From positions 1-64,000 of the forward strand of contig CACEXK010000004.1 in assembly GCA_902563505.1 (NCBI GenBank): a DNA stretch of 64,000 nucleotides. Reading direction: 5' to 3'. Shown here piece after piece: positions 13,696 to 23,490 of this stretch (the first letter of the stretch is position 1; the number at the start of each line of letters is the position of its first letter). A model generated the notes under the pieces. It was not told the origin of the DNA. It did not search any database and saw nothing but the letters and a program-made list of their open reading frames with translations. Origin of the DNA: an uncultured Alphaproteobacteria bacterium (GTDB taxonomy: Bacteria > Pseudomonadota > Alphaproteobacteria > Methylaequorales > Methylaequoraceae). Made by a program: the position numbers and the translations under genes.

Positions 13696-14961
13696 ATGTT
13701 TGTTCATAAAGACATAATTATCGTATTCGTATTTATAGTACTAATATGTTTTATCTTCATCTTGCTTTTCTTAAAAGATTTGAGAAGTGTAGTTAAAAGT
13801 TTACAGAATTTTTCCGGCAAACCCTTAAGAAGCTCGCGCTTATTTTTTTTTAAATTATTTGAACCTATTATTTTCAACTTAAACACTATCTTAAAAAAAT
13901 ATCAGGATAACTATCGTATTGAACAATTAAGAGTGTTTTTCTTTAATTATTTTTTTAAAAACTTTCCAGACCCACTTTTAATTATTGATCAAAGACTTCA
14001 GGTCATTGAGTTTAACTCTGCCAGTGCAGACTTATTGGGGGAAGGCATTAAGAGTCAAAATATTTTCTCTGTATTACGAATTCCCGAATTAGGCGATCTT
14101 ATCGATGAATCACAAAAAAGACAAAAGCCTCTGGAAGCAGAAGTAAATCTTATTTACCCTTCAGAGAGAATTTTTAAAATCTGGATATCTGGAAGTAGGG
14201 ATGTTGGTAAAAACAAACTGAATTTTATAAGACTTTTTGATACAACTGCAGAACACAACCTTCAAAATCTCCAAAAAGACTTTATTGCCAATGCAAGCCA
14301 TGAGCTTAAAACTCCCATTTCTGTAATTATTGGTTATTGTGAAACCCTTCTTTCAGAAAAAAATACTAAAAATGATGTCAAAGAAAAATTCTTAAAAACA
14401 ATGGCTAATGAAGCTGAAAGAATGTCTAGACTTGTTAATGAATTATTGTCTTTATCCAGAATTGAAAGGACTGAATTTAGTCCTCCGGAAGATAAAGTTG
14501 ATCTAAACAAAGTCCTTAAAGAAGTTGAGAAAATTTGTATCGATAGAAAATTATTTAAAAAAATTAAGTGTAAGTTTTCATATTTAAAGAAAGGTGTTTT
14601 CGTAATAGGAGATGAATCTGAGCTTAAGCAAGTGTTTTTCAATATAATTGAAAATGCAATCAGACATAGTCAGTCAAAAAAACCGATTGAAGTGAAAATC
14701 AAACAAGCTAAAGACAATATCACTTTAATTTTTGAAGATTTTGGGATTGGAGTTGCTAATCAGAATATTCCTCTATTAACAAAAAGATTTTTTAGAGTTG
14801 ACCCATCGCGCTCAAGAGATACTGGGAATACTGGGCTTGGTTTATCAATTGTTAAACATATACTAAATCGGCATAATGCAAACTTTCAAATTGAGTCTGA
14901 AATTGGTAAAGGTTCAAAGTTTTTAGTTACATTCAATAATAAGAAACCAAGTCTTTACTAA
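13696..14961 (+). CDS. phoR: PhoR-like sensor histidine kinase
   Basis: TM, PAS-like domain, DFIANASHELKTPISVIIGY H-box, GLGLSIVKHI; adjacent to pst/phoB genes. Confidence 0.88.
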   Translation: MFVHKDIIIVFVFIVLICFIFILLFLKDLRSVVKSLQNFSGKPLRSSRLFFFKLFEPIIFNLNTILKKYQDNYRIEQLRVFFFNYFFKNFPDPLLIIDQRLQVIEFNSASADLLGEGIKSQNIFSVLRIPELGDLIDESQKRQKPLEAEVNLIYPSERIFKIWISGSRDVGKNKLNFIRLFDTTAEHNLQNLQKDFIANASHELKTPISVIIGYCETLLSEKNTKNDVKEKFLKTMANEAERMSRLVNELLSLSRIERTEFSPPEDKVDLNKVLKEVEKICIDRKLFKKIKCKFSYLKKGVFVIGDESELKQVFFNIIENAIRHSQSKKPIEVKIKQAKDNITLIFEDFGIGVANQNIPLLTKRFFRVDPSRSRDTGNTGLGLSIVKHILNRHNANFQIESEIGKGSKFLVTFNNKKPSLY

Positions 14962-15067: not shown

Positions 15068-16525
15068 ATGAACAAATATCTTGCTTATACTCCAGTTATG
15101 TTAGCTGTGGGTTTTTTTAACAATGTTAAAGCCCAAAATTATGACAAACAGATTGATGCGCTTCAAAATGAGCTTCTTAAAATGAAACAAGAAATGAACA
15201 ATGGTTCTGATAAAAGCAAGGCCTACTTTAAAAAAGGTAAAGGGCTTTCAATAAAAAGCAATGACGGGAAGTACAGTTTTCAAATTAAAGGAAGATTAAT
15301 GTACGACATTGCTGCAATTGTTGATGCCGAGAAAACCGTTAATGGTGTATCATCAGATTATTCAAGTAGTGCTTCAAACGATACAGAAGGTTTCGGATCA
15401 GAATTTAGAAGAATTAGATTTACACTTAAAGGTGAAGTAGGAAATGGCTGGGGGTTTGCATTCCAGCCAGATTTTGGAGATTCGCCAGATATGGGTTCAG
15501 ATAGATCTGTTGTTTTCAAAGATGCTCATATATATAAAAAAATAAAAGGTTTTGGTAAAATAACTATTGGTAACCACAAAGTTGCCGGTGGTATGTATGA
15601 AAACACAAGTTCTAATGCATTAGTTTTCAATGAGCGTCCTATGCATAATGAATTAATGAACTTTGGGAATAGAACTGGAATAGGCTATGACACGAATGGT
15701 GTGTTCGGGAATACTTTTCATGGCAGAGCCTCATTGTTTTCTGGAACCGAGTCAGCTTTCGAACAAGGAATTAATATGGGAGATGCATCATCAACATCAC
15801 ATGAGCTTTATGGTTCAAGTGTTGCTGGTCAATACACATTCATAGATGAAAAAGAAATGAAAGCTATGGTTGGTTTTCACTATGGATACCTGAATCTAAG
15901 AGGGGAGGCTAGCACAACTGGTTATGACACTGCAAGTGCTTACATAAATGGTGTTCATACTATTTTAGATAAAGCAATAGACTTAGGAAACTGGGATACA
16001 ACAACCCCTAATCTTGAAAGTTTTCAGTTTTACGGACCTCAAGCTTTGTTTTTATACAAAAATTTCTTACTTATGGGTGAATACCAAAAAGGTTTCTATG
16101 AATTAGAAAAAGTTACTGGAAATGCTCAAGAAGAAGACTATGACATTCATGGATGGTCCATTGGTGGCCTATGGACGATAAGCGGTGAACAAATGAAATA
16201 CTCTGGGAAAAAGGGTAAAATTGGTGGTTTAAAATGCAAGAGACATTGTACTCAACTTAAGTTCCAATATCAATATGCTGATGCTGTTGATAGACCATCA
16301 AAAGCTGGTGTTACAGGTCCATTCAGAGATGATGGTGGTCAAGGTCGTGTATACAAAGGTGGTATAAATCATTATTTTAATTCGAATGTCAGAATTATGC
16401 TTGAATATGCCTATGGTGATTATTCCTATGATGATGCAATTGCCGAAGACACCACAAACGGCTTTGGTGAAAATGGTAGCTCTGAGGTTTCTACAGTAGA
16501 AGCCAGACTTCATCTAAAATGGTAA
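15068..16525 (+). CDS. Porin of OprP/OprO (phosphate-selective porin) type
   Basis: 485 aa; signal peptide, coiled-coil start, FQIKGRLMYDIA, beta-rich body, terminal VEARLHLKW; in pho locus behind a Pho box. Confidence 0.8.
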   Translation: MNKYLAYTPVMLAVGFFNNVKAQNYDKQIDALQNELLKMKQEMNNGSDKSKAYFKKGKGLSIKSNDGKYSFQIKGRLMYDIAAIVDAEKTVNGVSSDYSSSASNDTEGFGSEFRRIRFTLKGEVGNGWGFAFQPDFGDSPDMGSDRSVVFKDAHIYKKIKGFGKITIGNHKVAGGMYENTSSNALVFNERPMHNELMNFGNRTGIGYDTNGVFGNTFHGRASLFSGTESAFEQGINMGDASSTSHELYGSSVAGQYTFIDEKEMKAMVGFHYGYLNLRGEASTTGYDTASAYINGVHTILDKAIDLGNWDTTTPNLESFQFYGPQALFLYKNFLLMGEYQKGFYELEKVTGNAQEEDYDIHGWSIGGLWTISGEQMKYSGKKGKIGGLKCKRHCTQLKFQYQYADAVDRPSKAGVTGPFRDDGGQGRVYKGGINHYFNSNVRIMLEYAYGDYSYDDAIAEDTTNGFGENGSSEVSTVEARLHLKW

Positions 16526-16569
16526 TGGTATAAAAGTTGGTTTTCGTTTCCCCAATATAATTTAAAGAA

Positions 16570-16593
16570 GGTTCTGAGTATGGGCCCTTTTTT
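16570..16593 (+). terminator. Weak putative intrinsic terminator after porin gene
   Basis: GGTTC-tgagtat-GGGCC stem (two G-U pairs) followed by cTTTTTT. Confidence 0.35.
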
Positions 16594-16930
16594 AAATTAA
16601 AAAATCGCTAAAATAATCCTAATTATATATTGTTTTTCCTTTCATAGAAGCATCAGATGTAAACCCATAAAAAGATTTAAATTTGGAAGCATTTTGTTTC
16701 AGGTGCTTATCAAGAAACTTCTTATCTTAGAAGTTGAATTCACCATTGATCGTATATATTTTTCAGAGCATAGTTTATAAAAAAAAACAGCTTATAAGAT
16801 CCTTGGTTTTAGTGGCTCTGAACATTATTTGCACAAATAACCTTTTTGCAATCAAGCAATGCCTTTAATTAATATGCATATGCACATAACATACTCGTCT
16901 TATTATGCAAATATTAGTGCATATACATAC

Positions 16931-17476
16931 TTATTTTCCATCTAAAGCATTTTGGTAGTATTTGTGAATTATAGAATCTTGATTTTCTAACAGCCAGTCA
17001 ATCGATGGCTCATCATTCATTGCTTTCTTAATTGCATTTGTAGTTGCTTTTCTATGGATATCAAAAAGAATTTTGTGGTCTAGATTTTTTTCTTTTGTGA
17101 CTATTGGATTTAACCATACAGATACAATTACACCCAATTCATTTGCCTTGTCTTTAGGAATGTATCCTTCTCTCACAGAATCAAGAACTCCATTAGCAAT
17201 AGCTCCTTGGACAGTTCCCATGAGAATGTTCGTATATTTATCATCTTTTACAGTAACTTTACTGACCATCAATGTTGCAGGTTTAACCATCACATCAGTA
17301 TTCATTATTGCTAAAACCTTTGTGTGACCTTTGATTTGATTCCCAATAAGGGTTGCAAAAGCTGTCCCAAATGGTCCGTTGAGGTGACCAATAACAACCT
17401 CAGGTTCTGCTGCAGTCCCAGGTGGACCTCCTGCTATAAGGGATTCGCCAACTTTCATTATAAAGTCATTACTCAT
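16931..17476 (-). CDS. Formaldehyde-activating enzyme (Fae) family homologue
   Basis: 181 aa; VGESLIAG, VVIGHLNGPFGTAFATLIGNQIKGHTKVLAIMNTDVMVKPATLMVSKVTVKD, and HRKATTNAIKKAMNDEP align by eye with canonical Fae throughout; strong RBS (AAAGGAGATATT-ATG). Confidence 0.85.
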   Translation of the reverse strand: MSNDFIMKVGESLIAGGPPGTAAEPEVVIGHLNGPFGTAFATLIGNQIKGHTKVLAIMNTDVMVKPATLMVSKVTVKDDKYTNILMGTVQGAIANGVLDSVREGYIPKDKANELGVIVSVWLNPIVTKEKNLDHKILFDIHRKATTNAIKKAMNDEPSIDWLLENQDSIIHKYYQNALDGK

Positions 17477-17563
17477 AATATCTCCTTTAATAATTGGTAA
17501 AAAGAAAGGGATGTTAGCTTAAATTCGCTTTTTTTACAATGTCGTCTGAAATTAACCTGTTAA

Positions 17564-17592
17564 ATGTCACAAATCTGTAACAAAACTATCAT
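17564..17592 (+). promoter_or_regulatory. Putative Pho box (three PhoB half-sites) between fae homologue and pstS
   Basis: ATGTCAC-aaat-CTGTAAC-aaaa-CTATCAT, exact 11-bp periodicity; 61 nt from pstS start, 87 nt from the divergent fae start. Confidence 0.8.
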
Positions 17593-17653
17593 AATTTAGT
17601 TTCACAAGTTTTTTATGTTAGGTTTTTAACTTTAACAATGATGAGGAACTATT

Positions 17654-18709
17654 ATGAAGAAAATGCTATATATTTTGTCAATTACCCTTTTATTTGGTTT
17701 AAATTATAATGCTTTTGCACGTGATCAGATAAAAATTGTTGGATCATCAACTGTTTATCCTTTTGCTACAGTTGTTGCTGAAAGATTCGGAAAATCAAGT
17801 GGTTTTAAGACACCTGTAATTGAATCAACTGGTTCAGGAGGCGGTCTAAAGCTTTTCTGTGCTGGTTTAGGAACAGAACACCCAGATATAACTAATGCCT
17901 CGAGAAGAATAAAAACAAAAGAGGTGCAAAAATGTTCTAAAAACGGTGTTGATGATATTACAGAAATTAAAGTAGGGTTTGACGGAATTGCTTTAGCTAA
18001 TGCTAAGTCTGGACCAACTTTAAAATTATCTCTAAAAGAGCTTTATCTTGCGTTAGCAAGAGTTGTTCCGGCAGATAAAGAGGGCAATACTGTAAAACCT
18101 AATCCATACAAAATGTGGAATGAAATTAACCCTGACCTTCCTGCAGCACCTATTGTTGTAATTGGTCCACCTCCGACTTCAGGAACAAGAGATGCTTTTA
18201 ATGAATTAGCTATTGAAAAGGGTTGTAAAAAGTTTCCAGGACGAAAAGCTTTAAAAAAAGAAAATAAAAAACTTTATAAAGCTGAATGTAGAGGGATTAG
18301 AGAAGACGGTCCTTATGTTGAAGCTGGAGAAAATGACAATCTTATAATTGAAAAACTAGTTGCTGACCCTGGTGCCATCGGTGTTTTTGGGTATTCTTTT
18401 CTTGACCAGAATAGAGATAAAGTTAAACCTTCAGAAATTGATGGTGTACTTCCAAAATTTGAAGATATTTCATCCGGGAAATATCCAGTTTCTAGATCAC
18501 TCTTTTTCTATGTAAAAAATGCACATGCAGCAGTAATTCCTGGAATAAAAGAGTATGTTCGGGAATTTACGGCAGAAAAAGCTATTGGTTCGGACGGATA
18601 CCTAATTTCAAAAGGTTTAATTCCATTACCTAATGATGAAAGAATGAAATTCGCTAAGGATGGAAAAAAACTAGCTAAGTTTAATCCAAAGGAATTAATT
18701 AAAAAATAA
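17654..18709 (+). CDS. pstS: Phosphate ABC transporter substrate-binding protein
   Basis: IKIVGSSTVYPFATVVAERFG, STGSGGGLKLFCAG; head of the pstSCAB operon. Confidence 0.95.
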   Translation: MKKMLYILSITLLFGLNYNAFARDQIKIVGSSTVYPFATVVAERFGKSSGFKTPVIESTGSGGGLKLFCAGLGTEHPDITNASRRIKTKEVQKCSKNGVDDITEIKVGFDGIALANAKSGPTLKLSLKELYLALARVVPADKEGNTVKPNPYKMWNEINPDLPAAPIVVIGPPPTSGTRDAFNELAIEKGCKKFPGRKALKKENKKLYKAECRGIREDGPYVEAGENDNLIIEKLVADPGAIGVFGYSFLDQNRDKVKPSEIDGVLPKFEDISSGKYPVSRSLFFYVKNAHAAVIPGIKEYVREFTAEKAIGSDGYLISKGLIPLPNDERMKFAKDGKKLAKFNPKELIKK

Positions 18710-18722
18710 ACAAGCGGGGTGT

Positions 18723-20108
18723 ATGGGGTTTTGGTCCTTTTTTGTAATTTTTTGTTTTATCAGCTTTTATGTGTATTGGTATAGCACTACTAAAGCTCTG
18801 AAATTCAATTCTGATGTTAAAAAAGGACAAAAACTCCCCTCTCTACCTTCCTACTACGGGACTCATTCTTTCTTTTGGCTTTTCATACCTATTTTTTTAC
18901 TATTAGTTTCCTGGTTTTTTTTAAAACCTTTTATTCTTGACTTTTTTCTATTAAAAAAAATTCCTCAGGACTTTCTGGCGAATTTTGGAGGCAAACCAAA
19001 AATGCTAATAGATACAATAAAGTCAACAAACCCGGAAAATTTTTTTCCAGGAACAAACCCTGTTATTATTGATTCTGCTAAATATTTTCATAGTTTAAAA
19101 ATAATATCTGATTCTTATGTTTATTCAGGTGTTTTGATTCTAGGGTTGTTATCTAGTACTTTTTCTCTACGAAAAATCTCGGTTATTTTTAAAGCAAGGC
19201 AGGCCGTAGAGAAAACTAATATAAATTTGCTTATTCTGTGCTCAGTTATAGCAATAGTCACAACTGTAGGGATTGTTTTTTCATTAATTTTTGAAGCTTT
19301 ACGTTTTTTTGATAAAATCCCATTTTTTGATTTTCTTTTTGGTATTACATGGAGCCCCCAAACTGCAATAAGGGAAGGACAAATAGCTAGCGAAGGGTCT
19401 TTTGGAGCCATTCCAATCTTTACAGGAACGCTTTTAGTAACTCTTATTGCTATGTTTGTTGCAATTCCAATTGGTCTTTTATCGGCAATATATTTGGCTG
19501 AATACGCAAAACCAAAAGTAAGGTCAACCATAAAGCCAATTCTAGAAATCTTGGCAGGTGTTCCCACAGTTGTTTACGGTTTCTTTGCTGCAATTACAGT
19601 TGGTCCCTTCTTAAAAGAAATTGCTATTTTTTTTGGCTTCAGTATCGCTTCAGAAAGTGCGCTTGCTGCTGGTGGTGTAATGGGAATTATGATTATCCCT
19701 TTCATTTCTTCATTATCAGACGATGTGATGAGTGCTGTACCTCAATCCTTACGAGATGGTTCCTATGCAATTGGCGCTACAAAGTCAGAAACAATAAAAC
19801 AGGTTGTTTTACCAGCTGCACTTCCAGGCGTTGTTGCAGCAATTCTTCTTGCCGTATCCAGAGCAATTGGTGAGACAATGATCGTAGTAATGGCAGCTGG
19901 TATATCCGCTAACTTGACAATGAATCCATTTGAGTCTGTTACTACTGTTACTGTTCAGATCGTAACTTTGTTAGTAGGAGATCAAGAGTTTGATAGCGCA
20001 AAAACACTTGCGGCTTTTGCTTTAGGAATAACTCTTTTTTTTCTTACTCTTTTCTTAAATTTGATTGCACTAAAAATTGTTAGGAAGTACAGGGAAAAAT
20101 ATGAGTAA
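18723..20108 (+). CDS. pstC: Phosphate ABC transporter permease PstC
   Basis: Multi-TM; SFGAIPIFTGTLLVTLIAMFVAIPIGLLSAIYLAEYA, AIGETMIVVMAAG; operon position. Confidence 0.93.
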   Translation: MGFWSFFVIFCFISFYVYWYSTTKALKFNSDVKKGQKLPSLPSYYGTHSFFWLFIPIFLLLVSWFFLKPFILDFFLLKKIPQDFLANFGGKPKMLIDTIKSTNPENFFPGTNPVIIDSAKYFHSLKIISDSYVYSGVLILGLLSSTFSLRKISVIFKARQAVEKTNINLLILCSVIAIVTTVGIVFSLIFEALRFFDKIPFFDFLFGITWSPQTAIREGQIASEGSFGAIPIFTGTLLVTLIAMFVAIPIGLLSAIYLAEYAKPKVRSTIKPILEILAGVPTVVYGFFAAITVGPFLKEIAIFFGFSIASESALAAGGVMGIMIIPFISSLSDDVMSAVPQSLRDGSYAIGATKSETIKQVVLPAALPGVVAAILLAVSRAIGETMIVVMAAGISANLTMNPFESVTTVTVQIVTLLVGDQEFDSAKTLAAFALGITLFFLTLFLNLIALKIVRKYREKYE

Positions 20109-21375
20109 TACGAAAATTATAAGAGAATCATTAAAGAAAAGACATTTAGCGGAATCAAGGTTTAAGGCCTATGGGATTTTGGGGATCATATCAGCTACCC
20201 TTTTTCTTATGGCAATCTTATCCACAATCTATATAGAAGGTAAAAGTGCGTTTAAAAGTACCTATATTAAAATAAATATTTTTTACGATCCCTCAATTAT
20301 TGACCCAGAGGGAACAAGAGATATTGAAGAAATCAAATTTGCAAATTATAGAAAAATAATAAAGAATTCATTGAAGAATTACTTTCCAGAGGTTATTGGA
20401 AGAGAAGAACTAAAAAACTTAATTAGCTTTATATCTTCTTCTGAAGAAGAAAATTTAATGAAGGCAGTTTTGGAAAACAATGAATTAATTGGCTCAGATA
20501 AAATAGTATGGCTTAAAGCATCATCTACCATAGATGTCATAAATAAGAATCCAGAAATGAAAAATTTGCCTGAGTCAAATAGATTAATTTCTGATCAAGA
20601 ACTAGTATGGTTTAACAAGTTAGTCTTAAGCGGTGATGTAAAGTTTGGTCTAAACAAGGATTTTTTTTTAAAAGCCGATTCAACGGAACCTGAGCAAGCA
20701 GGAATTCTTGGCTCTATTTTAGGTTCATTTTTTACTTTGCTAATTACTTTGATTCTTTCTTTTCCCGTTGCAGTTGCAGCAGGTGTTTTTCTTGAAGAGT
20801 TAGCTCCTAAGAATAAATTTACAGACTTTATTGAAATAAATATTAATAATTTAGCTGCCGTACCATCAATAATTTTTGGTTTGCTAGGTCTTGCGATTTT
20901 TCTTAATTTGATGCATTTACCCCGTTCAGCCCCTGTTGTTGGAGGAATGGTTTTAGCATTGATGACACTGCCTACGATAATTATCGCCACTAGGGTTTCT
21001 TTAAAAGCAGTTCCACCCTCCATAAGAGAGGCTGCAATTGGGTTAGGGGCAACAAAATTTCAAGCTGTTATTCACCATGTTCTCCCACTTGCTGTTCCAG
21101 GAATTGCAACAGGAACAATAATCGGAATGTCAAGAGCCCTTGGTGAATCAGCTCCTCTATTATTGATAGGCATGGTTGCTTTTATCGTTGATATTCCAGG
21201 CTCTTTTGTTGATTCGGCTACAGTTTTACCAGTTCAAATTTATCTTTGGAAAAGCACCGCTGCTAGAGGTTTTGTTGAATTAACTGCTGCAGGTGTTATT
21301 GTTTTATTAACCTTTTTAATTCTTATGAATGCTTTGGCTATTTTTGTTAGAAACAAATTTGAAAAGAAATGGTAA
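20101..21375 (+). CDS. pstA: Phosphate ABC transporter permease PstA
   Basis: PVAVAAGVFLEELAPKNKFTDFIEININNLAAVPSIIFGLLGLAIFL, SRALGESAPLLLIG; likely start MSNTKII at 20101 overlapping the pstC stop (ORF track starts at 20077). Confidence 0.93.
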   Translation: MSNTKIIRESLKKRHLAESRFKAYGILGIISATLFLMAILSTIYIEGKSAFKSTYIKINIFYDPSIIDPEGTRDIEEIKFANYRKIIKNSLKNYFPEVIGREELKNLISFISSSEEENLMKAVLENNELIGSDKIVWLKASSTIDVINKNPEMKNLPESNRLISDQELVWFNKLVLSGDVKFGLNKDFFLKADSTEPEQAGILGSILGSFFTLLITLILSFPVAVAAGVFLEELAPKNKFTDFIEININNLAAVPSIIFGLLGLAIFLNLMHLPRSAPVVGGMVLALMTLPTIIIATRVSLKAVPPSIREAAIGLGATKFQAVIHHVLPLAVPGIATGTIIGMSRALGESAPLLLIGMVAFIVDIPGSFVDSATVLPVQIYLWKSTAARGFVELTAAGVIVLLTFLILMNALAIFVRNKFEKKW

Positions 21376-21381
21376 GGCCTT

Positions 21382-22143
21382 ATGGAAAAAACTAAAATAG
21401 AAAGTAAAAAGATAAATGTTTACTATGGAGATAAGAAGGCATTATCAAACATTACCTTAGATATACCAGAAAAAAAAGTAACATCCTTAATCGGTCCGAG
21501 CGGTTGTGGTAAATCAACTTTTTTAAGATGTTTAAATAGAATGAACGATACTATAGATATATGCAGGATTGAGGGAAAAATTTTAGTTGATGGAGAAGAC
21601 ATTTATGATACAAAATTAGATCCAGTATTGCTTAGAGCAAGAATTGGAATGGTCTTTCAAAAACCAAATCCTTTTCCTAAATCCATTTTTGATAATGTTG
21701 CATATGGTCCTAAAATCCATGGATTAACAAACAGCAGTGATGAGTTGCAATTATTAGTTGAATCTAGTTTAAAAAAAGCAGGTTTGTATAATGAAGTAAA
21801 AGATAGGCTCAATGAACCTGGAACATCTTTGTCAGGGGGTCAACAACAAAGGTTATGCATAGCTAGGGCAATAGCTGTTAGTCCAGAAGTTATACTTATG
21901 GATGAGCCCTGCTCAGCTTTAGATCCAATTGCTACAGCTATTATTGAAGAATTAATAGACGAAATATCTAAAAATTTTACCATAGTGATTGTAACTCATT
22001 CCATGCAGCAAGCCGCAAGGGTTTCTAATCAGACAGCTTTTTTTCATATGGGCAATCTCATAGAGGTTGGAAAAACAGATCAAGTTTTCTCTACACCTAA
22101 AGAGAAGAAAACTCAGGATTATATAACAGGTAAGATTGGATGA
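21382..22143 (+). CDS. pstB: Phosphate ABC transporter ATP-binding protein
   Basis: Walker [34 protein letters not shown] signature, [10 protein letters not shown]. Confidence 0.97.
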
Positions 22144-22804
22144 TGATATGAAGGAACATATAGTTTCAAATTACGATGAAGATCTAAATTCACTAAAATC
22201 AAATTTAATTGAAATGGGTATTAATTGTGAAAGACAATTATTTAATGCTATAAATCTTACAAAAATAATTAATATATCTAAAGCAAAGGAAATCGTTAAA
22301 AATGACGACGAAATTGATGCCCAAGAAAGAAGAATAAGAGATTTTGCTACTATCACACTCAGCAAAAGACAGCCACTCGCTGACGACTTAAGGAAAATAA
22401 TCATTGCTCTTAAAATTTCTAGTATTCTCGAAAGAATTGGGGATCATGCTTCAAATGTTGCTGGAAGAATTCTATATGTAAAAAAAGCTCCAGAAAGCTA
22501 TCTAACCGATTCTATATATCAACTAGGTCAATTAGTTTTAAAAAACTTCTCAAAAGCATTAAGCTCTTACGATCAAGAATCACAGAAGATAGCGCAGGTA
22601 GTTCCTGCAGAGGATATTACAATTAATTCAGTTTATGAAACTTGTTTTAGAGAGCATTTACATTTAATGATGGAAGACCCAAAAATTTTAGGTTTTTGTA
22701 CACAAATGTTATTCATAGCTAAAGAACTTGAAAGAATTGGGGACTTATCAAAAGTTATATCAAAAGAAGTAATCTATAATTTAAAAGGTAAGTTGGCGAA
22801 ATGA
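22136..22804 (+). CDS. phoU: Phosphate transport system regulator PhoU
   Basis: Two PhoU helical repeats ([28 protein letters not shown]); operon context. Confidence 0.94.
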
Positions 22805-23490
22805 GTGAAAAAAGGGAAATTTTAGTTGTTGAAGATGATACGGCTCTTCTCCCAATGATTACTTATAATCTTGAAAAAAATGGGTTTTTAGTTAAAGAAG
22901 CAACAAACGGTGAGGAAGCTTTATTACTTATAAAAGAAGAGATACCTTCTCTGGCTATAATTGATTGGATGATTCCTGCACCATCTGGATTAGAAGTTTG
23001 TAGAATATTAAGAAAAAAAAAAGAAACATCAAAATTACCAATAATAATTCTTTCTGCTAAGGGGGAAGAAGAAGATAAAGTTCGAGGTTTAAATACAGGT
23101 GCTGATGATTATATTACTAAACCCTTTAGTCCCACTGAGTTAATGGCTAGAATAAATTCTCTTCTTAGAAGATCAACTTCCAGTAGTGAAGAAATAATTG
23201 AATTTAAAGATATTTCTATAAACTTGAATGAACATAAAGTTTATAGGAAAAATAAAAAAATTCATTTAGGCCCAACCGAATATAAACTCCTCAAACATTT
23301 TCTTGAAAACCCTGGTAGAGTATATAGCAGAGAACAGTTGCTTGATTCTGTTTGGGGGCACGGAATATATGTTGAGTCCAGGACAGTTGATACCCACATT
23401 AGAAGGCTAAGAAAAGCCATGAATGTTCCCGGAACCAAAAATTTCATCAGAACAGTCAGAGCTGCCGGCTATTCAATTGACATTGATTAA
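22801..23490 (+). CDS. phoB: Phosphate regulon response regulator PhoB
   Basis: REILVVEDDTALLPMI, LAIIDWMIPAPSG, winged-helix GPTEYKLLKHFLENPGRVYSREQLLDSVWG. Confidence 0.94.
   Translation: MSEKREILVVEDDTALLPMITYNLEKNGFLVKEATNGEEALLLIKEEIPSLAIIDWMIPAPSGLEVCRILRKKKETSKLPIIILSAKGEEEDKVRGLNTGADDYITKPFSPTELMARINSLLRRSTSSSEEIIEFKDISINLNEHKVYRKNKKIHLGPTEYKLLKHFLENPGRVYSREQLLDSVWGHGIYVESRTVDTHIRRLRKAMNVPGTKNFIRTVRAAGYSIDID

Follow-up and report, generated by a model that had tools for sequence, protein, structure and literature searches.

Gene content of the locus

The window, a stretch of 64,000 nt, carried an ORF of 181 aa at nt 16931–17476 of the minus strand, preceded just 5′ of its ATG by a Shine-Dalgarno-like ribosome-binding site (AAAGGAGAT; nt 17477–17490, minus strand, read from the sequence). 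The predicted protein matched PF08714 over its full length (profile positions 1–158 of 159; 197.9 bits against a gathering cut-off of 27), confirming the first-pass annotation, which by eye had recognised a full-length homologue of formaldehyde-activating enzyme (Fae). Its nearest solved structure was M. extorquens Fae (1y5y/1y60), the PDB chain of which matched the ORF with an E value of 9.6e-20, and of 1.4e-66 in a profile search. An AlphaFold2 model, built from an input alignment of window and genome-locus sequences only, had a pLDDT of 92.6 and superposed on 1y60 with TM scores of 0.84/0.89 and an rmsd of 1.7. PDB entry 8ub7, named Avd, also matched; this suggests a fusion construct that shares the Fae stretch, with no bearing on the protein studied here. 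With TIGR03126, the NCBI Fae equivalog, the ORF scored 131.3 bits, just above the cut-off of 118.05, and the canonical Fae copy of the same genome scored 254.8 bits. Thus, the cut-off does not separate the protein and its kind from catalytic Fae, and current models label such paralogues as the Fae enzyme.

Phosphate genes flanked the ORF. Upstream in the window, on the plus strand, were a PhoR-like histidine kinase (nt 13696–14961; TIGR02966, 283.9 bits, below the cut-off of 334.2) and a phosphate-type porin (Porin_O_P, PF07396; nt 15068–16525). On the other side, also on the plus strand, were a pstS-type phosphate-binding protein (nt 17654–18709; PF12849, TIGR02136) and pstC, pstA, pstB, phoU and phoB (nt 18723–23490; NCBIfam equivalogs above cut-off). 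The position between porin and pstS was therefore as first described, and none of the other window genes scanned was a C1 or H4MPT gene, again in agreement with the earlier reading. The interval of about 400 bp that separates the porin from the fae-like gene (nt 16526–16930) contained no recognised gene and no Rfam match; for an RNA leader or riboswitch, the Rfam scan of the window returned one tRNA only. A phage origin of the gene was rejected, as it had no match in phage records.

Residues of the catalytic pocket

In the alignments with PDB sequences, the Fae segment VAHIDLIIG lay over AAEPEVVIG of the window protein, so that Glu24 stood in the column of the catalytic His and Glu26 aligned with the Asp after it; the codons for Glu24-Pro25-Glu26 were at nt 17399–17407 (minus strand). 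The same correspondence was obtained in an alignment of 189 Fae sequences from the window's genome, its relatives, other Proteobacteria and plasmids. The initial alignment by eye, in which the active-site His fell on Glu, was thus correct, and the alignment to the PDB chain of M. extorquens Fae placed Glu24, and no His, at the active site. Over the 189 sequences this column held His in 75, Glu in 93 and Met in 21 and no other residue, the Glu count being biased in that part of the Glu set was collected with a peptide pattern covering this stretch. The same His/Glu/Met split was seen among matches from a whole-protein search of two class samples, for which no pattern was used.

The catalytic role of the His column and the roles of the pocket residues are taken from the Fae structure and UniProt annotation. 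Among the 189 sequences, the pocket Lys was found in all, Gln in all except one and Thr in most, while the Asp column held Asp in 74 of the 75 His-type sequences and Glu in every Glu- and Met-type sequence. Within the Glu clade (n = 93), Glu at the His position, Lys73, Gln90 and the Asp-to-Glu change were each present in 93/93 and Thr75 in 88/93. The window protein thus possessed the Lys73, Thr75 and Gln90 expected of a catalytic Fae and carried Glu24 in place of the His that was present in 75/75 canonical sequences. Many further positions differed from canonical Fae in a fixed, type-specific manner.

Three types of Fae and their relation to Fae2 and Fae3

In a maximum-likelihood tree, which rests on one small protein and for which the bootstrap had not fully settled, the Glu (E), Met (M) and His (H) types were each set off from the other sequences by a branch, supported at 98/96, 98/98 and 100/100, respectively, and the E and M types stood together against H. 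The phylogeny proposed by the first-pass annotation thus set the E type apart from the canonical H type, with the M type as its sister. Since the three residues sort onto separate, supported branches, the replacement of His by Glu is, judged from these alignments, a class signature, an old character of the class and no local mutation. The E-types of the alphaproteobacterial family were placed among those of marine Gammaproteobacteria, the nearest fork having support of only 80/96.

With canonical Fae (M. extorquens AM1, 1y5y/1y60, TIGR03126) the window protein shared the fold, the Pfam family, the pocket Lys, Thr and Gln and the occurrence in H4MPT genomes. Their identity was about 32%, and the window protein differed in the His-to-Glu24 and Asp-to-Glu26 changes, in a GGPPGTAAEPE loop at the N-terminus and a short insertion around residues 127–139, and in its occurrence beside a canonical copy within one genome. 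Grouping outside canonical Fae and coexistence with a canonical copy, as expected of the Fae2/Fae3 class, were therefore both observed.

The Met type, with Met at the canonical His (TDAMPEI...), was found at loci L115, L116, L117, L119, L164, L166–L168, L170, L172, L175, L177, L180 and L182 and takes in the Fae of Methylobacterium aquaticum plasmid 1p. The Fae2 of M. aquaticum 22A, for which we took the sole Fae on pMaq22A_1p (Maq22A_1p31155), belonged to this sister clade; it likewise lacked the His and had the Asp-to-Glu change in common with the window protein, but had Met where the window protein has Glu24 and was about 36% identical to it. Deletion of fae2 in M. aquaticum slowed growth on methanol (PMC7356819). 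The Fae3 proteins of Methyloversatilis universalis FAM5 and Methylotuvimicrobium alcaliphilum 20Z are, by their description, homologues present beside a canonical Fae, as is the Glu type (PMC5023235, PMC11748545). As Fae2 falls in the M type, exclusion and the published descriptions make Fae3 the probable identity of the Glu type. Fae groups 2–4 have been described as being of unknown function (PMC11748545); sensing, regulation or folate-linked transfer have been suggested for Fae2 and Fae3 (PMC11748545, PMC3728764, PMC4109929), and in one Methylophilaceae genome Fae2 accompanies the H4MPT pathway while a true Fae is absent (PMC4109929).

An E-type protein of Methylobacterium sp. DM1 (AWI91988.1, "aldehyde-activating protein") fell in the same clade, with 64% identity to the window protein; unlike the window gene, it is encoded on a plasmid with N-methylglutamate pathway genes. 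On this plasmid, pLVM1 (L114:4296-9041), the Glu-type fae came directly after the genes of the N-methylglutamate pathway and was followed by a globin gene. Transposases were present near it, and the plasmid was typed as conjugative.

Fae serves as a marker of methylotrophy and of H4MPT-linked formaldehyde oxidation. A single alignment column separates the catalytic class (His) from two non-canonical classes (Glu and Met), and its use would correct many annotations. The question of Fae2 and Fae3 is long-standing, and a split defined by residues makes a direct test possible. This three-way split is the useful addition made here, the protein kind itself being already known; in the open-licence literature we found no statement that the Fae2 and Fae3 classes lack the catalytic His, which is no proof of novelty.

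Canonical Fae and the H4MPT pathway in the same genome

The window's genome possessed a canonical His-type Fae at C2:161524-161997, surrounded by genes for a PQQ methanol dehydrogenase (xoxF kind), PQQ-related functions, mch, RFAP synthase, an fhcB-like protein, fhcD, fhcC and an MtdB-like protein. The MtdB and xoxF assignments were made by reading the sequences and are putative; the MtdB-like protein had no named NCBIfam family. This xoxF/PQQ/H4MPT cluster spanned G000:C2:146000-178000 (L003, L004), and its fhcB scored far under the model cut-off (90.4 versus 327.8). The fhcA gene was missing from the cluster but was located apart on contig C1 (G000:C1:88316-89938), so the H4MPT pathway was not broken. 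Since the canonical Fae lies within xoxF/PQQ/H4MPT genes elsewhere in the genome, a methylotrophic way of life is very probable for the organism, and the window lacks C1 genes because these lie outside it. A complete H4MPT pathway in the genome, together with normal Fae activity of this protein, had been named at the outset as grounds for abandoning a non-canonical role; the pathway was indeed found, on other contigs.

Distribution of the Glu type

Among the window's genome and 31 relatives of the same family (n = 32, most assemblies being 54–93% complete), 16, including the window's own genome, carried both types, 8 the Glu type only, 5 the His type only and 3 neither. Seven of the 8 Glu-only genomes also lacked mch; as mch and canonical fae are neighbouring genes, one assembly gap could take both, and their joint absence is as expected of such a gap. 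In two genomes that were 92–93% complete (G006 and G007), the E-type was present and canonical Fae and mch were not found, which fits an assembly gap, a real loss also being possible.

In 274 sampled Gammaproteobacteria, 38 genomes had mch, 39 had a Fae of some kind and 18 had the Glu type. Genomes with the Glu type had mch in 17 of 18 cases, compared with 21 of the 256 others (Fisher p about 1e-15, a value that overstates independence in that E-type and mch genomes share ancestry), and mch was present in 35 of 39 genomes reached through related loci. These counts show that the Glu type is nested within genomes with the H4MPT pathway and travels with C1 metabolism. A Sedimenticola sp. bin (G097, L111) encoded two long non-canonical Fae proteins (201 and 199 bits), and mch was not found in its 2.8 Mb.

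Possible function of the Glu type

The fold, the residue pattern, the clade, the co-occurrence with H4MPT genes and the lack of a Pho box of its own (see below) are established. Read together at the level of sequence, they most likely denote a protein that binds a pterin and has an altered chemistry and role. We consider it probable that the product of the window gene is a second Fae, non-canonical and belonging to the Fae2/Fae3 class, that it binds an H4MPT-type pterin and serves the C1 pathway, and that, its proton-donating His being replaced, it is not the main condensing enzyme. The Fae pocket of the Glu type would bind H4MPT, methylene-H4MPT or a closely related C1-carrying pterin and would handle it otherwise than Fae does, as carrier, buffer or sensor; alternatively, the protein may catalyse a changed reaction, for example the reverse reaction or one with another pterin. 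Condensation activity would be altered or lost, and the main formaldehyde-condensing role would lie elsewhere. More tentatively, and with some doubt, the Fae fold of the Glu types may have no catalytic function and serve as a carrier or sensor of the C1 load, either by binding methylene-H4MPT or by capturing formaldehyde on H4MPT and not releasing it. Such proteins would be no less strongly conserved than Fae across methylotrophic Proteobacteria, and the Met type would be a second, parallel solution.

Glu24 could itself act as a general acid and some condensation activity could be kept. Taken further, this would make the protein a working Fae isoenzyme that uses Glu as proton donor to condense formaldehyde with H4MPT, perhaps under other conditions. 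The retained fold and most of the pocket residues, the TIGR03126 score above the equivalog cut-off and the near-constant presence alongside H4MPT genes are consistent with such an enzyme; however, the invariance of the His in canonical sequences and the many fixed, type-specific changes make it unlikely. In addition, Fae3 of M. alcaliphilum, which corresponds to the Glu type by inference only, failed to restore an AM1 fae mutant (PMC11748545). Loss of fae3 in M. alcaliphilum caused no growth defect (PMC11748545).

A role in methylamine use via the N-methylglutamate pathway, with C1 units passing between H4F and H4MPT, has been proposed for M. universalis Fae3, the gene for which was up 11.7-fold on methylamine and could be deleted without a growth defect (PMC5023235). 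The DM1 gene, which follows mgs genes and a gmaS-like (type III glutamine synthetase-like) gene, points in the same direction. As a general role this seems quite unlikely, since in 51 Fae-bearing genomes gmaS was found in 9 of the 24 with an E-type versus 6 of the 27 others (p 0.36), and the window's genome had no gmaS above cut-off; the methylamine link may be one use of the Glu type.

Phosphate neighbourhood and Pho box

The first-pass annotation had proposed a role other than formaldehyde condensation in the phosphate response. A component of this kind would be regulated by PhoB together with pstS from the shared intergenic region and would bind a ligand of phosphate starvation. In its favour are the pst, phoR, phoU, phoB and porin neighbours and a real Pho box at nt 17564–17592, within the 177-bp intergenic region common to pstS and the fae-like gene. 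This box consisted of three 7-mers with an 11-bp period (ATGTCAC-CTGTAAC-CTATCAT) and scored 22.8, against a shuffle mean of 2.3 (sd 2.8), with 0 of 300 shuffles as high. It lay on the plus strand, directed at pstS and not at the fae-like gene. No sense-orientation Pho box was found upstream of the E-type gene at any of 24 alphaproteobacterial loci, non-divergent ones included, whereas all 10 pstS genes of relatives had one. In loci arranged as in the window, the pstS box could also act divergently on the fae-like gene, but this would not apply to the many loci in which the two genes are apart. Matching Pho boxes also preceded many porin and GAPDH genes in the relatives.

In family f1, rearrangement notwithstanding, the Glu-type gene lay close to porin and phoR in almost every one of the 24 loci. 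Its other neighbours varied, being pstS, GAPDH with a major-facilitator gene, a glycosyltransferase/metallophosphatase pair, or ppk; the last three arrangements were seen at loci L035, L036, L043–L050, L052, L058 and L088. We take these neighbours to be phosphate-stress genes and the GAPDH/major-facilitator pair to be ArsJ-like. The pattern suggests a variable phosphate-stress island around the Glu-type fae in members of the family, and the persistence of the gene within it speaks for a phosphate role.

Outside this family, in Gamma- and Betaproteobacteria and in other alphaproteobacterial families, most contexts had no relation to phosphate. One marine group had hemB, aroE, ubiA and bioB beside the gene, and another had branched-chain transporters together with guaA and guaB; the neighbours were mixed in Methylophilaceae and unrelated in other alphaproteobacterial families. 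Among the loci compared outside f1, phoBR occurred near the gene in only a few Thiotrichaceae-like loci, where a weak link to phosphate is possible. Consistent phosphate neighbours were thus confined to one marine alphaproteobacterial family, and the position in the island is specific to this family and probably lacks regulatory significance. For both regulation and distribution the phosphate reading is rejected, and as an account of the protein it is very unlikely. Of the initial proposal, the part that stood is that this is unlikely to be an ordinary Fae, given Glu in all 93 sequences of the clade and a canonical Fae elsewhere in the genome; the part assigning it to the phosphate response did not, in view of the Pho box counts, the single family with such neighbours and the co-occurrence with H4MPT genes. 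Its suggestion that the protein binds a ligand or cofactor is plausible, a C1 pterin being the likely candidate.

Sequence constraint

That the gene is a decaying fae duplicate without function, as loss of the catalytic His and the frequent lack of phenotype of single paralogue deletions (PMC5023235, PMC11748545) might suggest, is hardly credible and already contradicted by constraint: ORFs were intact across classes, dN/dS of the Glu type was about 0.06, indicating purifying selection, 69 positions were at least 98% identical among the 93 Glu-type sequences, and the type was retained in streamlined genomes of about 1 Mb. In 13 pairs between the window's genome and gamma- or betaproteobacterial genomes, the median identity was 77% for the E-type versus 68% for canonical Fae, a difference that could reflect strong constraint or transfer between marine lineages.
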